DNA from: a virus
Virus record (IMG/VR): IMGVR_UViG_3300006921_000071
Location: 1 to 32,388 of that record
Length of the DNA stretch: 32,388 nt
Strand: one strand, 5' to 3'
The number at the start of each line of letters is the position of its first letter. The first letter of the stretch is position 1. Below the pieces are notes generated by a model. It was not told the DNA's origin. It searched no databases and saw only the letters and a list, made by a program, of their open reading frames with translations. Positions 526 to 21,557 of this stretch are shown one piece after another. Position numbers and translations under genes: made by a program.

Positions 526-777
526 ATGGCAGATTATAGAAAAGTTTGGGACGCAGTAGTAGAAAAAAGGAATCTTAAATTAGAAGCTTCTGATTGGACT
601 CAAATGGCAGACAGTCCGCTTACAGATTCTAAAAAAGCTGAATGGGCTACATACAGACAGACCTTACGAAATATACCTAATACTTTACGTAGTCATTCTA
701 ACTATGTAGATGATACGAACAGCCACCCTGATGATGGTTCAATTGTAGCTTGGACATGGCCAACAAAACCTTCTTAA
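526..777 (+). CDS. Phage tail assembly chaperone-like protein
   Basis: This 83-residue protein carries the signature of the small phage tail assembly chaperone family (Phage_tail_APC type). It has a basic start, then LEASDWTQMADSPL, then a WATYRQTLRNIP block at about residues 42-53. The R-x-L-x-x-SDWTQ...YRQxLR-x-IP pattern is highly characteristic. Such proteins usually follow tail fibre genes and are thought to help fibre or tail assembly, which matches the position one base after the preceding stop. The C-terminus contains WTWPTKP. There is no clear Shine-Dalgarno sequence, so translation probably couples to the upstream gene. Confidence 0.8.
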   Translation: MADYRKVWDAVVEKRNLKLEASDWTQMADSPLTDSKKAEWATYRQTLRNIPNTLRSHSNYVDDTNSHPDDGSIVAWTWPTKPS

Positions 778-967: not shown

Positions 968-1318
968 ATGGAAGAAGCTATCAAGCTCATTAATGAAGTG
1001 GGCTTTCCAATAGCAGCGGCCGGAGGCTTAGGGTGGTTTATTTACAAGTTAGTAATAAAAATTGTAGATGGTATGGAAGCAAAACTAGACGTTGTAGATG
1101 ATAAAGTAGCTGAACAAATAGAACAGATGGAACAGCGTCTTGGCACAAAACTTGACTCACAGCACGGTATACTTGTAGCATTGATAGACAGAGTGCGTAG
1201 TCTTGATAATGAAATCATACGTCAAGACACCATGATTAAAACAATTTTAGGAGTACCTAACTTAATAGATACAGACAAAATAGCAAAAGCAGATAGAGAT
1301 GACCAAAGAAAAGATTAA
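968..1318 (+). CDS. Single-pass membrane protein with coiled coil (holin- or spanin-like candidate)
   Basis: This 116-residue protein has one hydrophobic segment at about residues 12-31 (GFPIAAAGGLGWFIYKLVIK). A long helical, heptad-like region follows (EAKLDVVDDKVAEQIEQMEQRL onward), with a charged C-terminus. One N-terminal membrane anchor plus a coiled coil is common among small phage lysis or accessory membrane proteins. A holin or an i-spanin-like role is possible, but no diagnostic motif is visible. The gene starts 4 nt after the preceding stop, and its last 20 nt overlap the start of csgF, which suggests translational coupling into the curli cassette. Confidence 0.55.
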   Translation: MEEAIKLINEVGFPIAAAGGLGWFIYKLVIKIVDGMEAKLDVVDDKVAEQIEQMEQRLGTKLDSQHGILVALIDRVRSLDNEIIRQDTMIKTILGVPNLIDTDKIAKADRDDQRKD

Positions 1319-1841
1319 AAAGAAACGCGGAAGACCTAGTAATGCTGAGTTAAAGCGTAGAAAGGATGAAGCTGAAAAGATTTTAATTACTCGTATTGTA
1401 GCGGCTATTGGTATTATTTTAATTCTTGGTATTTTTGTTCAAAGTGTTACTGCTGATGAGATGGTGCACAAGTTTAAGAACCCTTCTTTTAATGGCGTAG
1501 GTACTTCTAGTCATTACCTTACAATAGAAAATCAAGAATTTAATCGTAAGAAAGCGATTAAAGAAGAGATTAAAGCTTATAGAGAAGAGTTAGAACGAGA
1601 AAAAGAAAACACTACTCTCGCAAGATTTATTAGGAATTTAGAGTCTAGAATCTACGCTCAGTTATCCAGGCAGTTAGTAGAACAACTGTTTGGTGAAACC
1701 CCCAGCACAAGTGGTGTGTTAGAATTAATGGGTAACACAATTGAGTATTCGGTGGATGGAGACTATATTACACTTAAAATTACAGATGCTGATGGGAATA
1801 CTACAGAAATTACCCTTCCTATTGGTTCCTTTACTTTCTAG
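1299..1841 (+). CDS. csgF: CsgF-like curli assembly protein with N-terminal extension
   Basis: In enterobacteria CsgF is a periplasmic/outer-membrane partner that binds the CsgG pore and anchors curli nucleation at the cell surface. The 180-residue product contains the CsgF hallmarks. After a hydrophobic export segment (about residues 31-50) comes HKFKNPSFNG, matching the E. coli FRNPNFGG region that inserts into CsgG. A middle helix follows (about 106-130, LARFIRNLESRIYAQLSRQL). The C-terminal block resembles the VxITDxxTG...I region (DYITLKITDADGNTTEI). Unusually, about 30 residues precede the export segment and include a Lys-rich, AT-hook-like KKKRGRPSNAEL. The gene overlaps csgG, which makes the assignment much firmer. 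Confidence 0.85.
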   Translation: MTKEKIKKKRGRPSNAELKRRKDEAEKILITRIVAAIGIILILGIFVQSVTADEMVHKFKNPSFNGVGTSSHYLTIENQEFNRKKAIKEEIKAYREELEREKENTTLARFIRNLESRIYAQLSRQLVEQLFGETPSTSGVLELMGNTIEYSVDGDYITLKITDADGNTTEITLPIGSFTF

Positions 1842-2640
1842 CTGTGCGCTAATTCTTGACCCTATTGAAAATAATCTAGGGCCAATTGAACGCATTGAAG
1901 AAGCTCAAGTTGAACAAATTGTCCTTACCGAACTAGCTCACGTAAAACGTAATACAGACACATCAAAACCTGTAGTTGCTGTGTACGCCGACGCTTTTAA
2001 AGATGATACAGGACAGCGTAGAAGTAATAGTTCGTTTGCTACATTCTCTACTGCAGTTACTCAAGCCCCGTATGTATACCTTATTCGTGCATTAAAACAT
2101 GCAGGAACTAATGCTGATGGTTTTTTTGATGTAGTAGAACGAGTTGGTTTAGATCATGTAACTAAAGAACGTCAACTCATTCGTAGTACCCGCCAAGACT
2201 TTGAAGAAAAGCAAAAATTACCGGCCCTTTTGTTCGCAGGTTTAATAATAGAGGGGGGTGTGGTAGGATATGAAAGTAATATTGAGTCTGGAGGCGCGGG
2301 AGCACGTCATTTAGGGATTGGCGGCTCAAAAGAATTTCGACGTGACACTGTGTCCGTTTCCCTTCGTGTAGTTTCAGTAGCCACAGGTAAAGTATTAATT
2401 GACGTCTTAGTTACTAAGACTATTTTAAGTGCTTCTGTAAGTCAAGACGTCTTTAGGTTCATATCAACAGGAACTGAGTTGGTTGAGATTGAGAGCGGTA
2501 GAGTACGTAACGAATCTATTAATTTAGCATTACGTGCAGCTATTGAAACAGCGGTATTAGAAGTAATCAAGGAGGGTGAAAACGCTGGTTTTTGGAGATT
2601 AGAAAATGAAAACGAGCAAGAGAAGAAGCCTTCTACTTAG
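1786..2640 (+). CDS. csgG: CsgG-like outer-membrane curli secretion lipoprotein
   Basis: CsgG forms the nonameric outer-membrane channel that exports curli subunits. The product (about 284 residues from ATG 1786; ATG 1792 is equally possible) begins with a lipoprotein signal peptide ending in LLSSC, lipidated Cys codon at 1843. Conserved CsgG landmarks are present: an FxxxTGQ-like KDDTGQRR, SNSSFATFSTAVTQAP, an ALKHAG/FFDVVER stretch, and GYESNIESGGAGARHLGIGG, which is nearly identical to the E. coli GYESN-SGGxGARYFGIG motif. LRVVSVATGKVL, TKTILS and VFRFI also match. An upstream in-frame TTG at 1741 would place residues before the signal peptide and is rejected. The start lies inside csgF and the end overlaps the curlin gene. 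Confidence 0.92.
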   Translation: MLMGILQKLPFLLVPLLSSCALILDPIENNLGPIERIEEAQVEQIVLTELAHVKRNTDTSKPVVAVYADAFKDDTGQRRSNSSFATFSTAVTQAPYVYLIRALKHAGTNADGFFDVVERVGLDHVTKERQLIRSTRQDFEEKQKLPALLFAGLIIEGGVVGYESNIESGGAGARHLGIGGSKEFRRDTVSVSLRVVSVATGKVLIDVLVTKTILSASVSQDVFRFISTGTELVEIESGRVRNESINLALRAAIETAVLEVIKEGENAGFWRLENENEQEKKPST

Positions 2641-3331
2641 CATTTTTCTACTATTTCCTTTGGTTACGTTTGCAGCGGATAACGAGATTTATATAGATCA
2701 GTCAGGAGCGACAGCTAATATAGACTTAGAGCAATTAGGATCAGGGAATATAATAGGAGGACTGAACTCGGTTGCAGGCACACTTACACCTCTAGATTTA
2801 GATGGTACTAGCTTAACGCTAGACATTAATCAAATTGGAGACAGTAATAAATTCTTAGGTGACATCTGGGGAGATTCACTAACAGGGTTTTTTGAATTTG
2901 ACGGCGATAGCAACACCTTTACTTTTCAAGGTGATCCTACAAATACCTACGGTATTGACAGCTCTAACTGGAATGTTGATGTAACAGGGTCAAGTAACAC
3001 GTTTACTTTTGACCAGGGCACTAATGCGTTAGCTAGCGGTTTGGATTTAGATTGGATTATACAAGGGGATAGCAACACTTTTACTATAGATATTGATTAT
3101 GATGGAGCAACAAATTATGTTGATGTTGATGGTGACAGCAACACTCTTACTTTTGATGCAGATGGTTATGCGGGTGGTTATTTTTACCTAGACCAAACAG
3201 GTAATAGTAGAACGTTTAACATTGAGCAACAAAGTACATTAGATAATGACTGGCTTAAAATTATTTCTTCTGGCAACAACGGTACTGTTTGCGTCATTCA
3301 AAACGACGGCGGAACAAGTACAGGTTGTTAA
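2606..3331 (+). CDS. Secreted curlin-repeat (CsgA/CsgB-like) protein
   Basis: The product has 241 residues with a Sec signal peptide (residues 1-23, cleavage after TFA), followed by a low-complexity Asn/Gly/Ser/Thr/Asp-rich beta region. Curlin-type Q-x-G-x-x-N motifs occur at about 32-37, 43-48 and 76-81. A related G-D-S-N-T-F unit recurs near residues 78, 100, 128, 154, 176 and 199, a spacing of 22-28 residues close to the 22-residue curlin repeat. Curlin repeats stack as a beta-solenoid amyloid. Position directly after csgG makes it the likely CsgG substrate. The repeats are more divergent and more acidic than enterobacterial CsgA, and a Cys lies near the end and another at the end. GGAG precedes the start at 2606, which lies inside csgG. 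Confidence 0.8.
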   Translation: MKTSKRRSLLLSIFLLFPLVTFAADNEIYIDQSGATANIDLEQLGSGNIIGGLNSVAGTLTPLDLDGTSLTLDINQIGDSNKFLGDIWGDSLTGFFEFDGDSNTFTFQGDPTNTYGIDSSNWNVDVTGSSNTFTFDQGTNALASGLDLDWIIQGDSNTFTIDIDYDGATNYVDVDGDSNTLTFDADGYAGGYFYLDQTGNSRTFNIEQQSTLDNDWLKIISSGNNGTVCVIQNDGGTSTGC

Positions 3332-4361
3332 TATAGGGAACGTATCTGAGTTAACAGGTTTTGCTAGAGTTATAAGAGAAAAACCTTATGACGCAGAATT
3401 AAAACTAGGGATACAATCTCAAGACGATGTACGCACTAGCAATGGGCGTATAGGACTTCGTTTTCTAGATGACTCAGTTGTACGTTTAACTGAGCATTCT
3501 AAACTTATTGTAGATAAATACATCTATGATCCTGATCCATCTAAATCTAAGATGGCATTACAATTTGCCAGTGGGACTATCCGTTACGTATCCGGCAAAA
3601 TAAATACAATTCGTAAAGAAAATATAAGCATACGTACACCAACTGCAAATATTGCAATTAGAGGCACAGACTTTACTTGCACTGTAGATGAGTTAGGTAG
3701 ATCTTTAATTATATTGTTACCTGATGTTAATGGTATTTCTTCTGGAGAAATAATTGTATCTACTGCAATGGGAGATGTTGTACTAAACAAACCTTACCAG
3801 GCTACAACTGTAAGTGTATTTGAAACTTCTCCTAGTAAGCCAGTTGTTTTAGATATAACACTTGAGCTTATAGATAACATGTTGATTGTGACACCTCCTG
3901 AAGAAGACGTACAAACGGAGACGGTGAACGCTGTTTCTAGTAGTGCAAGTTATTTAGATTTTAATGATTTAGATATAGATTATCTTGCAGAAGATTTTTT
4001 AGATAATGAGTCTGACCTTGAGTTTACTGAGCTAGATATAAATTACTTAGATACTAACTTTCTAGAAGACCTGTTAGCTGTATTAGACGAACTAGATGTA
4101 CTTCAAGATGATGGTTTAAAAAGCGATGTTACTTCTACTGTAGTAAAAGGCACACAAATAGGACAAGACCCACAAACGCAAATTACAACTATTATCCAGG
4201 GAGAAGTGTTAAGTTTGCGTAGATCGGTTAGTCAATCTGTTCGTATAGATTTAAACATTTCTCAAGGATATACCGTTATACTTATACAAGACGGTAAATC
4301 TAATCAAATTATTGTAAACGGTGGTGGATCAAATATTACTATTAAACAGAACTCGGGGTAA
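3246..4361 (+). CDS. Secreted FecR-domain protein
   Basis: The 371-residue product begins with a signal peptide (about residues 1-22). A FecR domain spans about 30-190, recognisable from the LGIQSQDDVRTSNGRIGLRF segment, the VVRLTEHSKL strand and SIRTPTANIAIRGTDF. FecR domains occur in periplasmic signalling and cell-envelope proteins. Residues 241-275 contain an acidic tandem duplication (DLDIDYLAEDFLDN, then ELDINYLDTNFLED). The C-terminal 70 residues are Gln/Ser/Ile-rich with Q-G elements recalling curlin repeats. The start lies 86 nt inside the curlin gene in another frame and encodes the signal peptide there, with no clear Shine-Dalgarno. It probably works with the cyclase that starts 3 nt downstream. 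Confidence 0.8.
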   Translation: MTGLKLFLLATTVLFASFKTTAEQVQVVNIGNVSELTGFARVIREKPYDAELKLGIQSQDDVRTSNGRIGLRFLDDSVVRLTEHSKLIVDKYIYDPDPSKSKMALQFASGTIRYVSGKINTIRKENISIRTPTANIAIRGTDFTCTVDELGRSLIILLPDVNGISSGEIIVSTAMGDVVLNKPYQATTVSVFETSPSKPVVLDITLELIDNMLIVTPPEEDVQTETVNAVSSSASYLDFNDLDIDYLAEDFLDNESDLEFTELDINYLDTNFLEDLLAVLDELDVLQDDGLKSDVTSTVVKGTQIGQDPQTQITTIIQGEVLSLRRSVSQSVRIDLNISQGYTVILIQDGKSNQIIVNGGGSNITIKQNSG

Positions 4362-4364
4362 AAA

Positions 4365-6143
4365 ATGAATAAGTGGTTAACAGGAGTACTTACTGCTATA
4401 GCATTATCAATGCCACTTATATTAGATTGGGGGGCATTAGAAGTACTTAGGCTTAAAACCTTTGATGCACTTATACAAGAACAAACTCCCAGCGGCCACT
4501 TTGTAATACTAGATATCACTGAGAATGATATTAGTAAAGAAGGAGGGTGGCCTTTTCCTAGAGAGCGGCTAGCAGAAATACAGCTTGATCTAATCGACCG
4601 TGGAGCTTTAGGCGTGGGTTGGGTAATTATGTTCCCACAAGCAGATAGATTTGGTGGAGACGCTGACTTCGCAATGAGCCTGCAGCAAGGCACAAATGTA
4701 CTAGCTATACCTGAATACGAAAACCGAATATACCCATCGACTGACGGTACTGTAATACTTGGGGATAACCCTGTGGATATGATTACTTTATCAGGGCACT
4801 TAGCTAACGTAAGTCTGCTAGAACTTTCGGCTTATCAGGGTATTGTGTCTGCACCGACAGATGTGGATAACTTAATTAGACGCGTCCCACTTATTGTACA
4901 AACTCCTGAAGGCTGGGTTGCATCGTTTGCTACACAAGTACTAAAAGCCCTGACCGGGGAAGGTACGTATCAAATAAAAACTTATGAAAGTGGTATACAA
5001 GCTGTTCGGATACCTGAGCTAGGTGTAATACCTACTGACAAGTACGGCAGAAAATGGATCTCTTGGGTTAATACTCCTAAAACTACGTTACAAGACCCCC
5101 AGGTAGATGGGAAGTTTGTGTTTGTTGGAGTTACAGCAGCTGGTGTTATGCCTCAATTAGCCACGCCCCACGGTCTACTTAATCCTCATCACATACAAGC
5201 AGCCTTAGCAGAAAGTTTATTACTGCCTAATAGCCCACAAATACCAGCAGACAGACTTACGTATGAGCTATTTATATTTTTAATTTTGTGTACATTTGGT
5301 CTCCTGCTTGGACGTAAATGTACGCCTGCATACATGGCAGGGGGAGCTGCAGTACTTCTTGTAAGTACAGGAGCACTTGAATGGTATTTTGTAGTTAAAA
5401 ACTCATTACTTATAGACACTACTTATAGCGGTATATCACTAGTACTTATATTAAGTCAGCAGTTCTGGCTTAATTTTAGAGAACAATCACTCCTTCGCCA
5501 GCAAATTAAGAAACAATTTGAACATTACTTAGATCCTCGCCAGGTAAAACGTCTGCAAGATGATCCAGATATACTTAAGTTAGGTGGTGAAAAGAAAGAA
5601 GCTACGTTTTTATTTACAGATGTAAGGGGTTTTACCTCTATGTCTGAACGATTAAAGCCTGAAGAAGTGACTTATGTAATGAATAAAGCTCTGACAGCGC
5701 AACAAAAAGCAGTACAAAAACACAACGGGATGGTAGATAAGTACATAGGAGACGCTATGATGGCTATCTTTAACGCTCCACTAGACTTAGTTAACCACCC
5801 TCGAGCAGCGTGTGACTGCGCAAAAGATATAGTTAAAAACATGGAAGTTTTAAATACAGAACTAAAAGCCGAAGGCCTACCTCCGATTGCAATTGGTATT
5901 GGGGTAAACACAGGTGAAGCTGTGATAGGAAACATGGGCAGCGAGTCACGGTTCGATTACACAGCTATAGGAGATGCAGTTAATTGTGGTGCAAGACTTG
6001 AATCTGCAACCAAAGAAGCTGGAGTAGACATACTTATAGGTGAGAAAACTGAATCTTTATGCGGATATTACTTACAAGAACTAGATCCGATGCCCGTAAA
6101 AGGTAAGGCAAAACCTTTGAGAGTGTTTACATTTATGAAATAA
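4365..6143 (+). CDS. CHASE2-domain class III adenylate cyclase (membrane receptor cyclase)
   Basis: The 592-residue product starts with a membrane segment, then an extracytoplasmic CHASE2 sensor (about 25-290, with LRLKTFDALI, VILDITENDIS and GGWPFPRERLAEI). Three membrane helices follow at about 300-368, a linker helix, and a class III nucleotide cyclase domain at about 410-592. Metal-binding Asp residues are D419 (FTDVRGFT) and D463 (DKYIGDAMMAIF). K459 and the FDYTAIGDAVN block (about 530-540) with R544 suit ATP rather than GTP, so cAMP is the likely product. In bacteria CHASE2 cyclases sense unknown external signals. GGGG lies shortly before the ATG. A full-length receptor cyclase in a phage is unusual. 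Confidence 0.9.
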   Translation: MNKWLTGVLTAIALSMPLILDWGALEVLRLKTFDALIQEQTPSGHFVILDITENDISKEGGWPFPRERLAEIQLDLIDRGALGVGWVIMFPQADRFGGDADFAMSLQQGTNVLAIPEYENRIYPSTDGTVILGDNPVDMITLSGHLANVSLLELSAYQGIVSAPTDVDNLIRRVPLIVQTPEGWVASFATQVLKALTGEGTYQIKTYESGIQAVRIPELGVIPTDKYGRKWISWVNTPKTTLQDPQVDGKFVFVGVTAAGVMPQLATPHGLLNPHHIQAALAESLLLPNSPQIPADRLTYELFIFLILCTFGLLLGRKCTPAYMAGGAAVLLVSTGALEWYFVVKNSLLIDTTYSGISLVLILSQQFWLNFREQSLLRQQIKKQFEHYLDPRQVKRLQDDPDILKLGGEKKEATFLFTDVRGFTSMSERLKPEEVTYVMNKALTAQQKAVQKHNGMVDKYIGDAMMAIFNAPLDLVNHPRAACDCAKDIVKNMEVLNTELKAEGLPPIAIGIGVNTGEAVIGNMGSESRFDYTAIGDAVNCGARLESATKEAGVDILIGEKTESLCGYYLQELDPMPVKGKAKPLRVFTFMK

Positions 6144-8394: not shown

Positions 8395-8772
8395 TCACTT
8401 ACTGCGATAGTTAATCTTAGTAAGCTCCGTAGACTTAACTCCTGGAACAGAACCGTCCAGTTGTAAAGCCTCTCTAAATGAAGTAGCCGACATACGTTTT
8501 TGCAATAACTCAAACCGACCAGTGTCGATTATGTGTTTATGCAATACGTCCCAGTCTTCTACAGTAGGTACAACATCTATTTTTTTAGAAATTGTACATA
8601 CATCACTCGCAATCTGGTCGAGACCTTGCTCTTCCATTTTGTAAATGATTTCACTATCGAGATCGTTTTGACGTAACTTAAGGACCTTCTCCTGTTCTTG
8701 TAAAGATTTAATGTCTTTACGTACAGATGACAGCTCATCCATAAGTTGGTTCAAATTCTTTTTTTCTTCCAT
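8395..8772 (-). CDS. Coiled-coil phage protein of unknown function
   Basis: The 125-residue protein has an N-terminal coiled coil (about residues 3-48, heptads in MDELSSVRKDIKSLQEQE). A C-terminal region contains VPTVEDWDVLHKHI, FELLQKRMSATSFREAL and VPGVKSTELTKINYR. Similar proteins recur beside helicase and recombination genes of phages, and the coiled coil recalls Gp157-type recombination accessories, but homology is not proven. The ribosome binding site is unusual: AGGAG is the loop of a perfect 7-bp hairpin abutting the start codon (8773-8791), which also overlaps the stop of the upstream helicase gene. Confidence 0.6.
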   Translation of the reverse strand: MEEKKNLNQLMDELSSVRKDIKSLQEQEKVLKLRQNDLDSEIIYKMEEQGLDQIASDVCTISKKIDVVPTVEDWDVLHKHIIDTGRFELLQKRMSATSFREALQLDGSVPGVKSTELTKINYRSK

Positions 8773-8791
8773 AACAATTCTCCTAATTGTT
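8773..8791 (-). promoter_or_regulatory. RBS hairpin: AGGAG in the loop of a 7-bp stem
   Basis: On the minus strand AACAATT-AGGAG-AATTGTT forms a perfect 7-bp stem with the Shine-Dalgarno as a 5-nt loop. The 3' arm is immediately followed by the ATG at 8772. The stop codon of the upstream helicase (8783-8785) lies inside it. The same architecture recurs at 16675-16691, 19811-19827 and 32352-32370 with different stems. Confidence 0.75.
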
Positions 8792-10129
8792 TAATTTATT
8801 TAAAATGTGGAGAAGATTCTCCATCTTGCCTAATTTCCCATTAAGCTTTTCATACACTGTTTCTTCCCAGGTATTACGTGCTGCAATGAGGATAGTCTCA
8901 GTTTTACTAGTTTGACCTGACCTATGTATACGTCGGTTAAACTGCTGAAAATGTTCTGCATTGTAAGTGGGACTACACCAAATGCAGGTTGTAGCTTTAG
9001 TTAGTGTAAGACCATGACTCGCAGATTGAGGATGAGCAAACAATACTTTTATCTGCCCGGCCTGAAATCTTTGTACGATATCAACACGTTTTTGTGGGTT
9101 AGTTTCACCATCAATAATTTCGTACGTATAGCCACGTTTGTCAGCTAATGCAGTCAAAGCATTACGTTCATGACGCCAATTGAATGCAACAAGACTGTGT
9201 TTGCGTACTTCTAATAGATCCATAATCATGTCGTAACGTTGCTGGTGAATGTATTTAGCATCACCTTGCTCGTCATACACAGCTCCAGAAACTAATTGCA
9301 GTAATTTTTTAACACGAGCGCCAGCGTTAACTGCGTTAATAGTCCCTTGTTTTGTGTACAAGACAGACTCTTCAGAGAGCGTTTTGTACATCTTTTGCAC
9401 AGCGGGTGTTAGATCTGTATGCATTACACGAGTTACGTTATCTGGTAAATCAATGCAATCTTCTAAAGCATAACGAATATTAATATCGTTTAGTTGGTGT
9501 GCTACTGTTTCTTCAATACCTGGTTTGTCTATCCATTCATTAGCAAAGCCATTGAACTTAGGAGTACATACTTGGTTACGAAAACTGTAGTAGCGAGTGC
9601 CTAAACGTTGCCCGTCATCTACACAAAGTGTTGGGTGCCAGACATCTATAATGCTATTAGTATTAGGAGTACCAGACATAAACACCCTGGTATCAAACTG
9701 TGACACAATCTTTCTAAGGTTTTTGGATCGTTTAGAATCTTTGTTCTTAAAGGCTGTGAATTCGTCAACCACCAACGTATTGAATCGGTCAAGTAACGAT
9801 GGATCTTTTGATAGGTAGTTAACAGCTTCGAAATTAGTAATGACCATGTCAAGTTCTTGGTCAGCGAATATTTTCTGGCGGTTCTTAGCATAAGCTACTC
9901 CGTAATTAAGGTTGGGTTGAAACTTTTTAATATCATCTACCCAAGCAGCTTCTAAGATAGATAGCGGTGCTATGACTAAGGTCACACTTTTAGTTTGCAC
10001 TAAAGCGTCTAACACAGAACGTGTTTTACCTGTGCCAGGGTCCGATGTAATAAGACATCGAGGGTTGTTTAGAATAAAGTTTGTGGTATCAGTTTGATGC
10101 GCATAGGCGGGCGGTGAATCTAATTTCAT
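8783..10129 (-). CDS. SNF2/SF2-type DNA helicase
   Basis: The 448-residue protein carries the full set of superfamily 2 motifs. Motif I is SDPGTGKT (about 29-36), motif Ia VIAPLSIL, motif II VDEF (121-124), motif III SGTP (152-155), and motif VI QQFNRRIHRSGQ near residue 400, preceded by the motif V region (SASHGLTLTKA). The R-I-H-R-x-G-Q form is typical of SNF2-like remodelling translocases, and phage relatives act in replication or recombination as ATP-dependent DNA translocases. It lies in the replication operon. Its ribosome binding site is CAGGA within a set of direct repeats at 10131-10192. Confidence 0.88.
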   Translation of the reverse strand: MKLDSPPAYAHQTDTTNFILNNPRCLITSDPGTGKTRSVLDALVQTKSVTLVIAPLSILEAAWVDDIKKFQPNLNYGVAYAKNRQKIFADQELDMVITNFEAVNYLSKDPSLLDRFNTLVVDEFTAFKNKDSKRSKNLRKIVSQFDTRVFMSGTPNTNSIIDVWHPTLCVDDGQRLGTRYYSFRNQVCTPKFNGFANEWIDKPGIEETVAHQLNDINIRYALEDCIDLPDNVTRVMHTDLTPAVQKMYKTLSEESVLYTKQGTINAVNAGARVKKLLQLVSGAVYDEQGDAKYIHQQRYDMIMDLLEVRKHSLVAFNWRHERNALTALADKRGYTYEIIDGETNPQKRVDIVQRFQAGQIKVLFAHPQSASHGLTLTKATTCIWCSPTYNAEHFQQFNRRIHRSGQTSKTETILIAARNTWEETVYEKLNGKLGKMENLLHILNKLNN

Positions 10130-18532: not shown

Positions 18533-18711
18533 TGTTTACTCCTATATAGTAGATACATACACACACTCACAAGAAACAATACAGACATCAGTGTAATGAC
18601 ATGATGCAATGTTGATGCAAGTGCAACTAAACCTAATAAAATACTGGCTCCGATCAATACAGAGTTTTTGTAATCTATTAGGAATTCTTTAAATTTTGAT
18701 AACTTCACCAT
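18529..18711 (-). CDS. Small two-helix membrane protein, 60 residues
   Basis: The start chosen is ATG 18711 (MVKLSKFKEFLIDY), with AGGAGG seven bases upstream; the longer frame from 18843 lies inside the VWA gene and is rejected. The product has a basic N-terminus and two hydrophobic helices (SVLIGASILLGLVALAS and HVITLMSVLFLVSVCMYLLY). This holin-like topology is suggestive only. Its first 23 nt overlap the end of the VWA gene. Confidence 0.55.
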   Translation of the reverse strand: MVKLSKFKEFLIDYKNSVLIGASILLGLVALASTLHHVITLMSVLFLVSVCMYLLYRSKQ

Positions 18712-19807
18712 AAGGTGCCTCCTCACTAGCTGTTGTAACCCATAAAACTGGGTATGGTGGTTGATCTCCGAAGTCGTTTGACTCCAAGTCGGTAAGATAC
18801 ACAAGAGCAGATACTGCTGGGTGTCGTTCATTGATGTAATCAATTACTGGACTAAAGCAGGTACCACCTCTACCTTCGTAAGTAACTTTAAGTGGTAGAT
18901 TTTCTCTAGTGTATTCTTCATCGGCACGTACTTCGGTATCACATTGTAGAAAATGAATACGCTCAGGATTTGTGTCATGAAGTATAGAAGTGATCTCGCC
19001 AGTAAACTGTTCTAGCTCTGCATTACTGATTGAGCCAGAAGTATCTACAGCAACTGCGATTTCTTCTAAACATGGAGTATGCAATGACGGTAAGTACATA
19101 CCTTGTGCAATGAACCTACGATTAGGTCGTATCCATGTAAAGTCTGATTTGTTGTTGGAACGTAAGAACCTAGCCAACGTCATCTTCCAATCAACTTTAG
19201 GTGCTAATGCTTTTTCTATAAGTTCTTGTAAATGACCAGGTAATTTACCCATTGACTTAGCAGCTTCTGCTGCTTGTTGAATAGCAATTTCTATATCAGC
19301 TTCGAATTTACCTGACGCTGAACCATCACCGATAGATGGGTGGTCCATAACTCCACCACACCCACCGGGATCGTCTCCGTCTAGAAGTATTACTCCAAAC
19401 GGACTATTGCCGTCTCCTAAATCGTCAGGCAGCAAATTGTATACTTCTTCTGTAGACATACCGTCGTACTTGTCATCCAAGAGTTCGGTATGTGGAAGTA
19501 TGAAATTACTTTTCTTAAGAGCAAGATTGATTACATAATCAGCAGCGATATTCCACTTTTGTGGGTCACGATGATCACGACGTAGCATGTGCATAAGAGC
19601 TACATGCATAACTTCGTGTGCAATAAGACCAATGCGTTCTTCGTCACGTAATTTTAGAAACCACTTTGGGTTGTACTTGATGCACTCACCATCGGTTGCT
19701 GCTGTACCTACGCTTTCATCTTCAATAGGTTTTAAGCGTAGAGCTAGCGTCCCGAAAAATGGGCTACTAAGAATTAGCTGGGATCTAGCTTTTGTATACT
19801 CTTGCAT
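18689..19807 (-). CDS. DUF2201-type VWA domain/putative metallopeptidase, partner of MoxR ATPase
   Basis: The protein has about 372 residues from ATG 19807 (MQEYTKARSQL). The ATG at 19816 sits inside the RBS hairpin with no spacing from AGGAG, so it is less likely. The N-terminal half contains a zinc-peptidase-like HEVMH (about 64-68) within LIAHEVMHVALMHML. The C-terminal half is a VWA-like domain with MIDAS residues DTSGS in IAVAVDTSGSIS. Proteins with this architecture pair with MoxR-like AAA ATPases, as here (20541-21557), in ATP-dependent chaperone-like assemblies, for example for metal insertion or protein remodelling. Its presence in a phage is unexplained. Confidence 0.85.
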   Translation of the reverse strand: MQEYTKARSQLILSSPFFGTLALRLKPIEDESVGTAATDGECIKYNPKWFLKLRDEERIGLIAHEVMHVALMHMLRRDHRDPQKWNIAADYVINLALKKSNFILPHTELLDDKYDGMSTEEVYNLLPDDLGDGNSPFGVILLDGDDPGGCGGVMDHPSIGDGSASGKFEADIEIAIQQAAEAAKSMGKLPGHLQELIEKALAPKVDWKMTLARFLRSNNKSDFTWIRPNRRFIAQGMYLPSLHTPCLEEIAVAVDTSGSISNAELEQFTGEITSILHDTNPERIHFLQCDTEVRADEEYTRENLPLKVTYEGRGGTCFSPVIDYINERHPAVSALVYLTDLESNDFGDQPPYPVLWVTTASEEAPYGEVIKI

Positions 19808-19808
19808 A

Positions 19809-20531
19809 TTACTCATCTCCTATGAGTGACGCAGTCAGAATGGTTTTGTTTAAGTCGTTGTCTACAACAACTTGGTCAGCCATTTCTTTCTGCTGTTCTT
19901 GTTTACGCTTGCGTTGTTGTTTCTCATGAACTTTGGCAAGCTTTTCTGGTTCTACTAATTTAGACAACGCAGGCCAAGCCTTCATAGCTTGGTTTAACGT
20001 AGTAAATTTAAGCAGTAACATATTTACTTTGTGACCTGCTATCTCACGTTGTGCTTGTACTTTGCTGTTGTACTCTATGCATTCACATAAGTAATTAAGA
20101 TCTGCGTCTTCGTATCTATTGAAATTATATTGAAGATGCTCCATAGACGAACTGTAACTACTAGTAGAAACACCCATAGGTACAGCACGTTCTGTAGATA
20201 GGGGTACTGATATGCGATAATCTTCATTTAGTTCTGTTTCAGATGTCATATCTTCATCATCATAAGCATGACTAGTTCTTGTATCATTAATAGGAACTAG
20301 ACAAGTAAGATTACTCGTTTTACTGAACATAGCGTCAGGATCTATAATGTCACCCAGATGTTCACGCATAGCTTCTTTAGCAGCTTCTACTTTAGGGCCG
20401 ATGTATCTGTTGTAGATAGCATCGCCACGTGTAACATCTAGTTCCATTGTTGGATTAGACTTTTTATGTGAGTCTTCAAATTTGTTGACGATGTCACGTC
20501 GCAAATAGTCAGACATTCTTACTGTACTCAT
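19809..20531 (-). CDS. Unknown protein between MoxR and VWA genes (possible Nmad5-like)
   Basis: The 240-residue protein begins MSTVRMSDYLRRDIVNKFED and contains LTCLVPINDTR, a Ser/Tyr-rich middle and a C-terminal LNQAMKAWPALSKLVEP followed by a Lys/Gln-rich coiled coil. The pattern loosely recalls phage nucleotide-modification-associated (Nmad5-type) proteins, but this is a weak impression. Its position between the MoxR and VWA genes suggests a substrate or adaptor of that pair. A GGAGG ribosome binding site precedes ATG 20531, flanked by a short TATA/TATA stem. Confidence 0.45.
   Translation of the reverse strand: MSTVRMSDYLRRDIVNKFEDSHKKSNPTMELDVTRGDAIYNRYIGPKVEAAKEAMREHLGDIIDPDAMFSKTSNLTCLVPINDTRTSHAYDDEDMTSETELNEDYRISVPLSTERAVPMGVSTSSYSSSMEHLQYNFNRYEDADLNYLCECIEYNSKVQAQREIAGHKVNMLLLKFTTLNQAMKAWPALSKLVEPEKLAKVHEKQQRKRKQEQQKEMADQVVVDNDLNKTILTASLIGDE
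19811..19827 (-). promoter_or_regulatory. RBS hairpin: AGGAG in the loop of a 6-bp stem
   Basis: On the minus strand ACTCAT-AGGAG-ATGAGT is a perfect 6-bp stem, followed after three bases by the preferred start at 19807 of the VWA gene. The upstream gene's stop region overlaps it. The stem differs from those at 8773, 16675 and 32352. Confidence 0.75.
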
Positions 20532-20540
20532 ATATACCTC

Positions 20541-21557
20541 CTATAAAATTACAGTTGAGTTATGAGACAACCACTTATCTACAGCGTCGTGTGTGATAAT
20601 TGATTTGTCTTTAATAACAGATTGTTTAATTGAAATAACTTGAAACTCTGTAGGTAACTTCTTGATTACCTTAACAATGTTTTCTATTTTCTCTGGACAC
20701 GCACGAGCTGCCAGAGCACCTGATAGAGCATACAAAACAGCCGGACTGTCGTCTGACTTGTAAGATGCTGGATTGTCTATGAGATAATCTATATCAGGCA
20801 AAGCTGAATAAATTTCTCTAAACGCTACGTATTCACCCGCTGGACCGTCACCGACAAGAGAAGATACACCGTAGAACAGTGTTTCTTCGTCCACGGCCGG
20901 TAACTTTAGTCGTTTGTCAACGAACGACCAGCTCCGAGGAGTCGGAAAAGCGTAGTTTTCAGCATTGAAATCAAACAGCAAGTTGGGTCTGTATCGTAAG
21001 AACGATACGAGAGACGTATCCACTCCATTGGATACTGCCCACTCACACCAATCATCCAGATCGGCTGAAAGCTCGTAGTGCGCCAATCTGTTTCTAACAG
21101 GTGATGGCATTTGATAGACAGCTGCAGCATCAGTAAGTCTGTTACCAGCCGCAATGATTGACCAGCCGTCAGGTAATTTGTAATTACCGACTTCCCTGGT
21201 TATCAACAACTGTAGGAACGCGTTCTGAGTTGCAGGTGGTGCAGTTGGTAATTCGTCAATAAGAAAAATACCTTCTGTACCGTCTCTGTCTGCTATTGGA
21301 AACACATCAGGCACAGCCCAACGTGTAAATCTTTTTGCAGATTCTTTGAGTTGTGCTACGTACGGCACACCTCTAACATCTACCGGGTCAAACAGGTTAG
21401 CCCTGAAGTCCAGTAGTTTCTTGTTGGTTTCATCAGCGATCTGTTGTGGGATCTCCGACTTACCTATGCCGGGACCACCCCATATCATGGTGTTGATGCC
21501 CGCTTGCATGTTTTGTTTTATCTCAGACTTTAGATGAGATGGTTTAATTGAATGCAT
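20541..21557 (-). CDS. MoxR-like AAA+ ATPase
   Basis: The 338-residue protein has Walker A WGGPGIGKSE (about 26-35), Walker B GIFLIDELP (96-104) and sensor I SIIAAGNRL (133-141). Next comes MPSPVRNRLAHYEL, the arginine-finger region of MoxR-type ATPases. These act as hexameric chaperones with VWA-domain partners, and such a partner is encoded two genes downstream. GAGGAG precedes ATG 21557. Phage MoxR proteins have been noted elsewhere without a known job; possible roles are virion protein maturation or host takeover. Confidence 0.88.
   Translation of the reverse strand: MHSIKPSHLKSEIKQNMQAGINTMIWGGPGIGKSEIPQQIADETNKKLLDFRANLFDPVDVRGVPYVAQLKESAKRFTRWAVPDVFPIADRDGTEGIFLIDELPTAPPATQNAFLQLLITREVGNYKLPDGWSIIAAGNRLTDAAAVYQMPSPVRNRLAHYELSADLDDWCEWAVSNGVDTSLVSFLRYRPNLLFDFNAENYAFPTPRSWSFVDKRLKLPAVDEETLFYGVSSLVGDGPAGEYVAFREIYSALPDIDYLIDNPASYKSDDSPAVLYALSGALAARACPEKIENIVKVIKKLPTEFQVISIKQSVIKDKSIITHDAVDKWLSHNSTVIL

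Follow-up and report, generated by a model that had tools for sequence, protein, structure and literature searches.

The presence of curli secretion genes in a virus raises the question of how many genes of the locus belong together, where they came from and what they could do for the phage. The window, i.e. the whole stretch of 32,388 nucleotides analysed here (IMG/VR record IMGVR_UViG_3300006921_000071), is derived from a marine bacterial virus and contains a six-gene cassette (968-6143) which is a conserved unit, coding in this order for P116, CsgF, CsgG, a curlin-like protein, a FecR-domain protein and a CHASE2 adenylate cyclase (Table 1). The preliminary description of this DNA had seen a "minimal" cassette of CsgF, CsgG and a repeat protein, which is incorrect: six genes recur together, and three of them had been missed. 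A further 80 viral loci, identified by CsgG similarity, have these genes in identical order; shorter gene lists among them mostly reflected contig ends. The CsgF, curlin-like and FecR genes were retained in nearly all loci that were long enough. Exceptions to the pattern were some viral loci with sufficient room and no detected cyclase, and two of the fetched viral loci (L057 and L060) in which the cyclase is on the opposite strand. A divergent cassette (L048:5926-12818) has two P116 genes and an additional curlin-like gene upstream of CsgF. Promoter and terminator scans gave matches at chance level only; Rfam and tRNA scans were empty and thus provided no clue to the host.

Table 1 Features of the cassette and its upstream flank (positions in the window)
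Feature	Position	Strand	Remarks
Tail assembly chaperone/fibre assembly gene (flanking)	526..777	+	End of structural block, outside cassette
P116, 116-residue membrane protein	968..1318	+	Single predicted TM helix followed by coiled coil
CsgF homologue	1299..1841	+	Pfam PF10614, E 1.9e-19; signal/TM segment
CsgG homologue, predicted outer-membrane pore lipoprotein	1792..2640	+	PF03783, 6.5e-44; LSSC lipobox
Curlin-like exported repeat protein, predicted beta-solenoid	2606..3331	+	Two conserved C-terminal Cys
FecR-domain protein, plausible signal peptide	3246..4361	+	Pfam; exact start uncertain
CHASE2-sensor class III adenylate cyclase	4365..6143	+	Pfam; catalytic motifs intact

The earlier identification of CsgF and CsgG was confirmed by Pfam profile search, with scores well beyond the cut-offs (Table 1), and the motifs claimed for them were found. 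CsgF carries F-K-N-P-S-F-N-G and ITDADG, and the GYESN..SGG.GAR..GIG block of CsgG aligned with the E. coli CsgG chains, which the CsgG family profile matched at 2.4e-58. The CsgF profile had no useful match among PDB sequences. The claimed overlap of the CsgF, CsgG and repeat protein genes also agreed with the ORF coordinates (Table 1, with the CsgG ORF taken as 1741-2640; its likely start, an ATG at about 1792, was picked from a conserved Met). CsgE, described previously as absent, had no match in the window or in a relative of 60 kb; E. coli served as the positive control. Three alphaproteobacterial genomes with CsgFG had no CsgE match either, so CsgE is not a defining component of that branch. 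In a CsgG tree, which has several long branches, the viral copies were separate from five alphaproteobacterial ones. The N-terminus of CsgF (window 1299-1420) has an unusual basic extension of RGRPS type ahead of the signal segment, seen in the window lineage and a few others (L006, L007, L009, L103).

The third gene had been reported to encode exported Q-x-G-x-x-N repeats. Predicted export and repetition stood up to analysis: the N-terminus is signal-like, GxxN occurs 8 times compared with 2.8 expected from shuffles (p about 0.002), and the looser pattern hydrophobic-x-[IVQF]-x-GxxN occurs 5 times compared with 0.15 expected. The strict form QxGxxN, on the other hand, is present in only 2 copies. 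The proposed check by curlin profile and structure also had a divided outcome. Pfam Curlin_rpt was sub-threshold in the window (0.58; best value within the family, 0.0015), and the profile of the curlin-like family had no useful match among PDB sequences. The AlphaFold model is a beta-solenoid (pLDDT 77.6) which matched the CsgA fibril 8enq (Z 11.2, 109 of 111 residues, rmsd 8.8) and also other beta-helices, those of enzymes scoring higher. The product is described here as curlin-like, rather than as a proven curlin, and is a likely substrate.

The P116 gene overlaps CsgF by 20 nt. In a search with P116 only, CsgF adjoined P116 in 78 of the best 80 independent relatives; one of the two other loci is cut off, and the other (L193:4001-4864), the sole P116 locus with downstream room and no CsgF, is followed by the phrog_1544 gene instead. 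The gene at this position in related phages has been published as a histidine kinase (HK; PMC9599517). No HisKA domain was found in the P116 family or in the five viral genomes searched, and identification of P116 as a histidine kinase was rejected, the positionally equivalent small gene being present. The P116 family gave weak similarity scores to phrog_4898/1296 and to YvrJ/holin-type proteins.

The FecR gene overlaps the curlin-like gene by 86 nt, and this overlap (median 86 nt) is conserved among relatives. Classic FecR sigma regulators have an inner-membrane TM segment and a cytoplasmic regulatory domain and act with a partner ECF sigma factor. The FecR domain of the phage protein follows a signal-like N-terminus with no clear internal TM segment, and no Sigma70_r4_2 domain was found in G000, G001, G040, HTVC008M or Melnitz. 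A role as sigma regulator is not supported, as both the expected architecture and, in these genomes, a partner ECF sigma domain were missing. FecR and CHASE2 genes occurred within 5 kb of each other 40 times in a set of 115 alphaproteobacterial genomes, compared with about 1 expected by chance if genomes of 3.5 Mb are assumed, and FecR was just upstream of CHASE2 on the same strand in 21 of these 40 pairs. Because the pair is widespread in Alphaproteobacteria, the FecR protein reads as the exported partner of the CHASE2 cyclase and not as an iron regulator. Structure prediction for it was poor (mean pLDDT 38.6), and a curlin-like motif that could be seen by eye in its C-terminus gave nothing with Pfam. 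The putative cyclase retains the metal Asp pair, the adenine Lys and the Asn-Arg motifs of class III enzymes. The Lys and first metal-Asp motifs were present in all 48 full-length copies; among relatives, seven copies failed one motif regular expression.

The phage carrying the cassette is a KPP25-like podovirus, and not one of the published HTVC023P-type or myovirus backbones. Its portal is of P22 type, and among annotated phages the KPP25-like Pseudomonas phages are its best relatives. Matches to KPP25 were found for 9 of 25 window proteins and matches to HTVC023P for 3 of 25, and with only three matching genes an HTVC023P-type origin was rejected. Identity with Pseudomonas phage KPP25 (Kochitakasuvirus) was 54 % for the capsid and 40 % for both portal and terminase, and the polymerase and helicase are similar. 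The cassette, however, was not found in KPP25 (50 kb compared; the remainder was covered by a phage-wide CsgG search). Two further KPP25-like records (60 kb and 35 kb) have it at the same site, after the tail genes. CsgG was detected in 1 of 26 KPP25-like fragments, most of which may stop short of this genome region.

The HTVC115P/HMO-2011-like podovirus G040 (53.5 kb), in contrast, has all six cassette genes in the same order with 41-72 % identity, whereas the remaining 19 of the 25 proteins compared from the window had no match to it at E 1e-5. As the two phages share only these six genes, the cassette appears to move as a unit, and transfer of the block between unrelated backbones is the simplest reading of the sequence comparison. 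Cassette transfer between phage families has been proposed previously (PMC9599517). Backbone labels of contigs are not dependable when phrog_1544 and lysozyme were the only matches. The phrog_1544 proteins of a KPP25-like and an HTVC115P-like contig (L105:6346-6828 and L032:6773-7246) are about 80-84 % identical, which exceeds the identity of the curli proteins and hints at a separate, recent exchange.

A genome scan with CsgG found only 4 loci. Two of these, L084 and the Maricaulis contig L082, resemble phage fragments that had been placed in bacterial bins. Such phage curli contigs within Maricaulis and Synechococcus MAGs (L082/L101, L084), probably misbinned, could mislead surveys of bacterial curli.

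The novelty claimed in the preliminary description was overstated, as the set including the fibre gene had already been published in pelagiphages. A curli module is carried by pelagimyophages (PMC7029224), Melnitz (PMC9004378) and HTVC023P-type podoviruses, in which it consists of HK, CsgF, CsgG, CsgA/B, FecR and cyclase (PMC9599517). The GenBank records of the cultured phages HTVC008M (KC465899) and Melnitz (MZ577097) show the module. Two curlin repeat proteins are annotated in MZ577097 (L087:6701-7420 and 8479-9495), contrary to the statement in the Melnitz paper that csgA and csgB are lacking (PMC9004378). The pelagiphage type VIII secretion (T8SS) module has small upstream gene(s), CsgF, CsgG, curlin, FecR and adenylate cyclase in the same order as the window, but with two upstream genes rather than one, and with a second curlin between FecR and cyclase that the window does not have. 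HTVC008M has a different backbone, and its cassette proteins are 32-43 % identical to those of the window. Alphaproteobacterial curli loci (L097-L100, L102) share CsgF and CsgG, and most have curlin-repeat genes, but no FecR/cyclase or P116 was detected with the viral profiles in the neighbourhoods fetched. Compared with the curli system of E. coli, CsgG and CsgF are homologous and a CsgA-like solenoid is predicted, but the window has no detected CsgE and its repeats are only loosely curlin-like. New is the occurrence of the cassette, itself a known module, in a KPP25-like podovirus with a P22-type portal, a lineage for which no earlier literature report of a curli cassette was found.

Judged from its gene content, the cassette is expected to enable the infected cell to export curli-like amyloid to its surface and to synthesise cAMP. 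We consider late surface display of amyloid, coupled to cAMP signalling and encoded by a horizontally mobile six-gene cassette, to be the best explanation, with a probability of roughly 0.6. Sec would export CsgG and CsgF as well as the curlin-like and FecR proteins; CsgG would assemble into an outer-membrane pore capped by CsgF, through which the solenoid protein would be secreted and, with no CsgE involved, nucleated as a fibre on the surface. The inner-membrane cyclase may read the exported FecR protein through its CHASE2 domain and so raise cAMP in the infected cell, with P116 as a putative inner-membrane accessory, and the amyloid might aggregate or shield infected cells. Either aggregation or blocking of superinfection, both suggested in the preliminary description, may be its effect. 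The cassette follows the structural genes at the promoter-distal end of their block, and this position suggests late expression. The gene identities support the pore, anchor and likely substrate on which the idea of phage-specified amyloid had been based; the weak curlin sequence match and the absence of clumping in Melnitz infections under the conditions used (PMC9004378) count against it. As the FecR/cyclase pair was undetected near the alphaproteobacterial curli loci tested, its coupling to curli is unseen in those bacteria and is putative in the phage. The function of phage curli has been discussed since 2020, and the cited papers contain no gene-deletion test. That unrelated backbones share the cassette intact, that the small membrane gene ahead of CsgF almost always belongs to it, and that FecR and cyclase can be recast as a sensor pair, together give testable predictions for that function.

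A variant, which we regard as rather doubtful, is a surface-sensing circuit in which the exported FecR protein would report curli secretion or cell contact to the CHASE2 cyclase, such that cAMP in the infected cell, and possibly lysis timing via P116, would depend on amyloid display. Equally unlikely is an aid to lysis, in which CsgG/CsgF and P116 would form a pore or pinholin-like device depolarising or permeabilising the envelope, as proposed for Melnitz. Of 129 testable loci, 48 have lysozyme and/or phrog_1544 (two C-terminal TM segments) no more than 1.5 kb upstream of P116, and in 40 phrog_1544 is the immediate neighbour of P116; the holin-type similarity of P116, though weak, points the same way. 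Lysis genes often adjoin the cassette in HTVC115P-like phages, unlike the window lineage, which gives a link with lysis some standing. In the window lineage, lysozyme and phrog_1544 are about 5 kb away and so exist independently of the cassette. A near-complete close relative encodes its own lysozyme and the holin-like phrog_1544 protein, so the exit pore suggested in the preliminary description is not required and that suggestion is weakened. Moreover, a lysis pore does not explain the conserved curlin, FecR and cyclase genes, and CsgG is by homology located in the outer membrane.

Still less probable than either is an uptake pore (PMC7029224; PMC9599517), i.e. an ungated CsgG channel admitting nutrients that feed replication, the repeat protein not being a fibre; the missing CsgE gate fits this, but CsgE matches are also missing in alphaproteobacterial genomes with CsgFG, and an uptake channel does not account for the consistent retention of the CsgF, curlin-like and FecR genes. 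That the cassette is passive cargo under little selection is very improbable given six open frames, invariant motifs across very divergent phages and reported transcripts of the pelagiphage versions (PMC9599517), even though KPP25, the closest annotated relative, has no cassette match and the cyclase of the related contig L075 is broken into several frames.

A CsgG with 39 % identity was also found in OR851715 (L088:322-972), an unverified clone of 1.5 kb labelled "Salmonella phage", which is probably not from that phage. In the replication block of the window (18689-21557), a DUF2201 VWA/metallopeptidase protein is encoded near a MoxR-like AAA protein.
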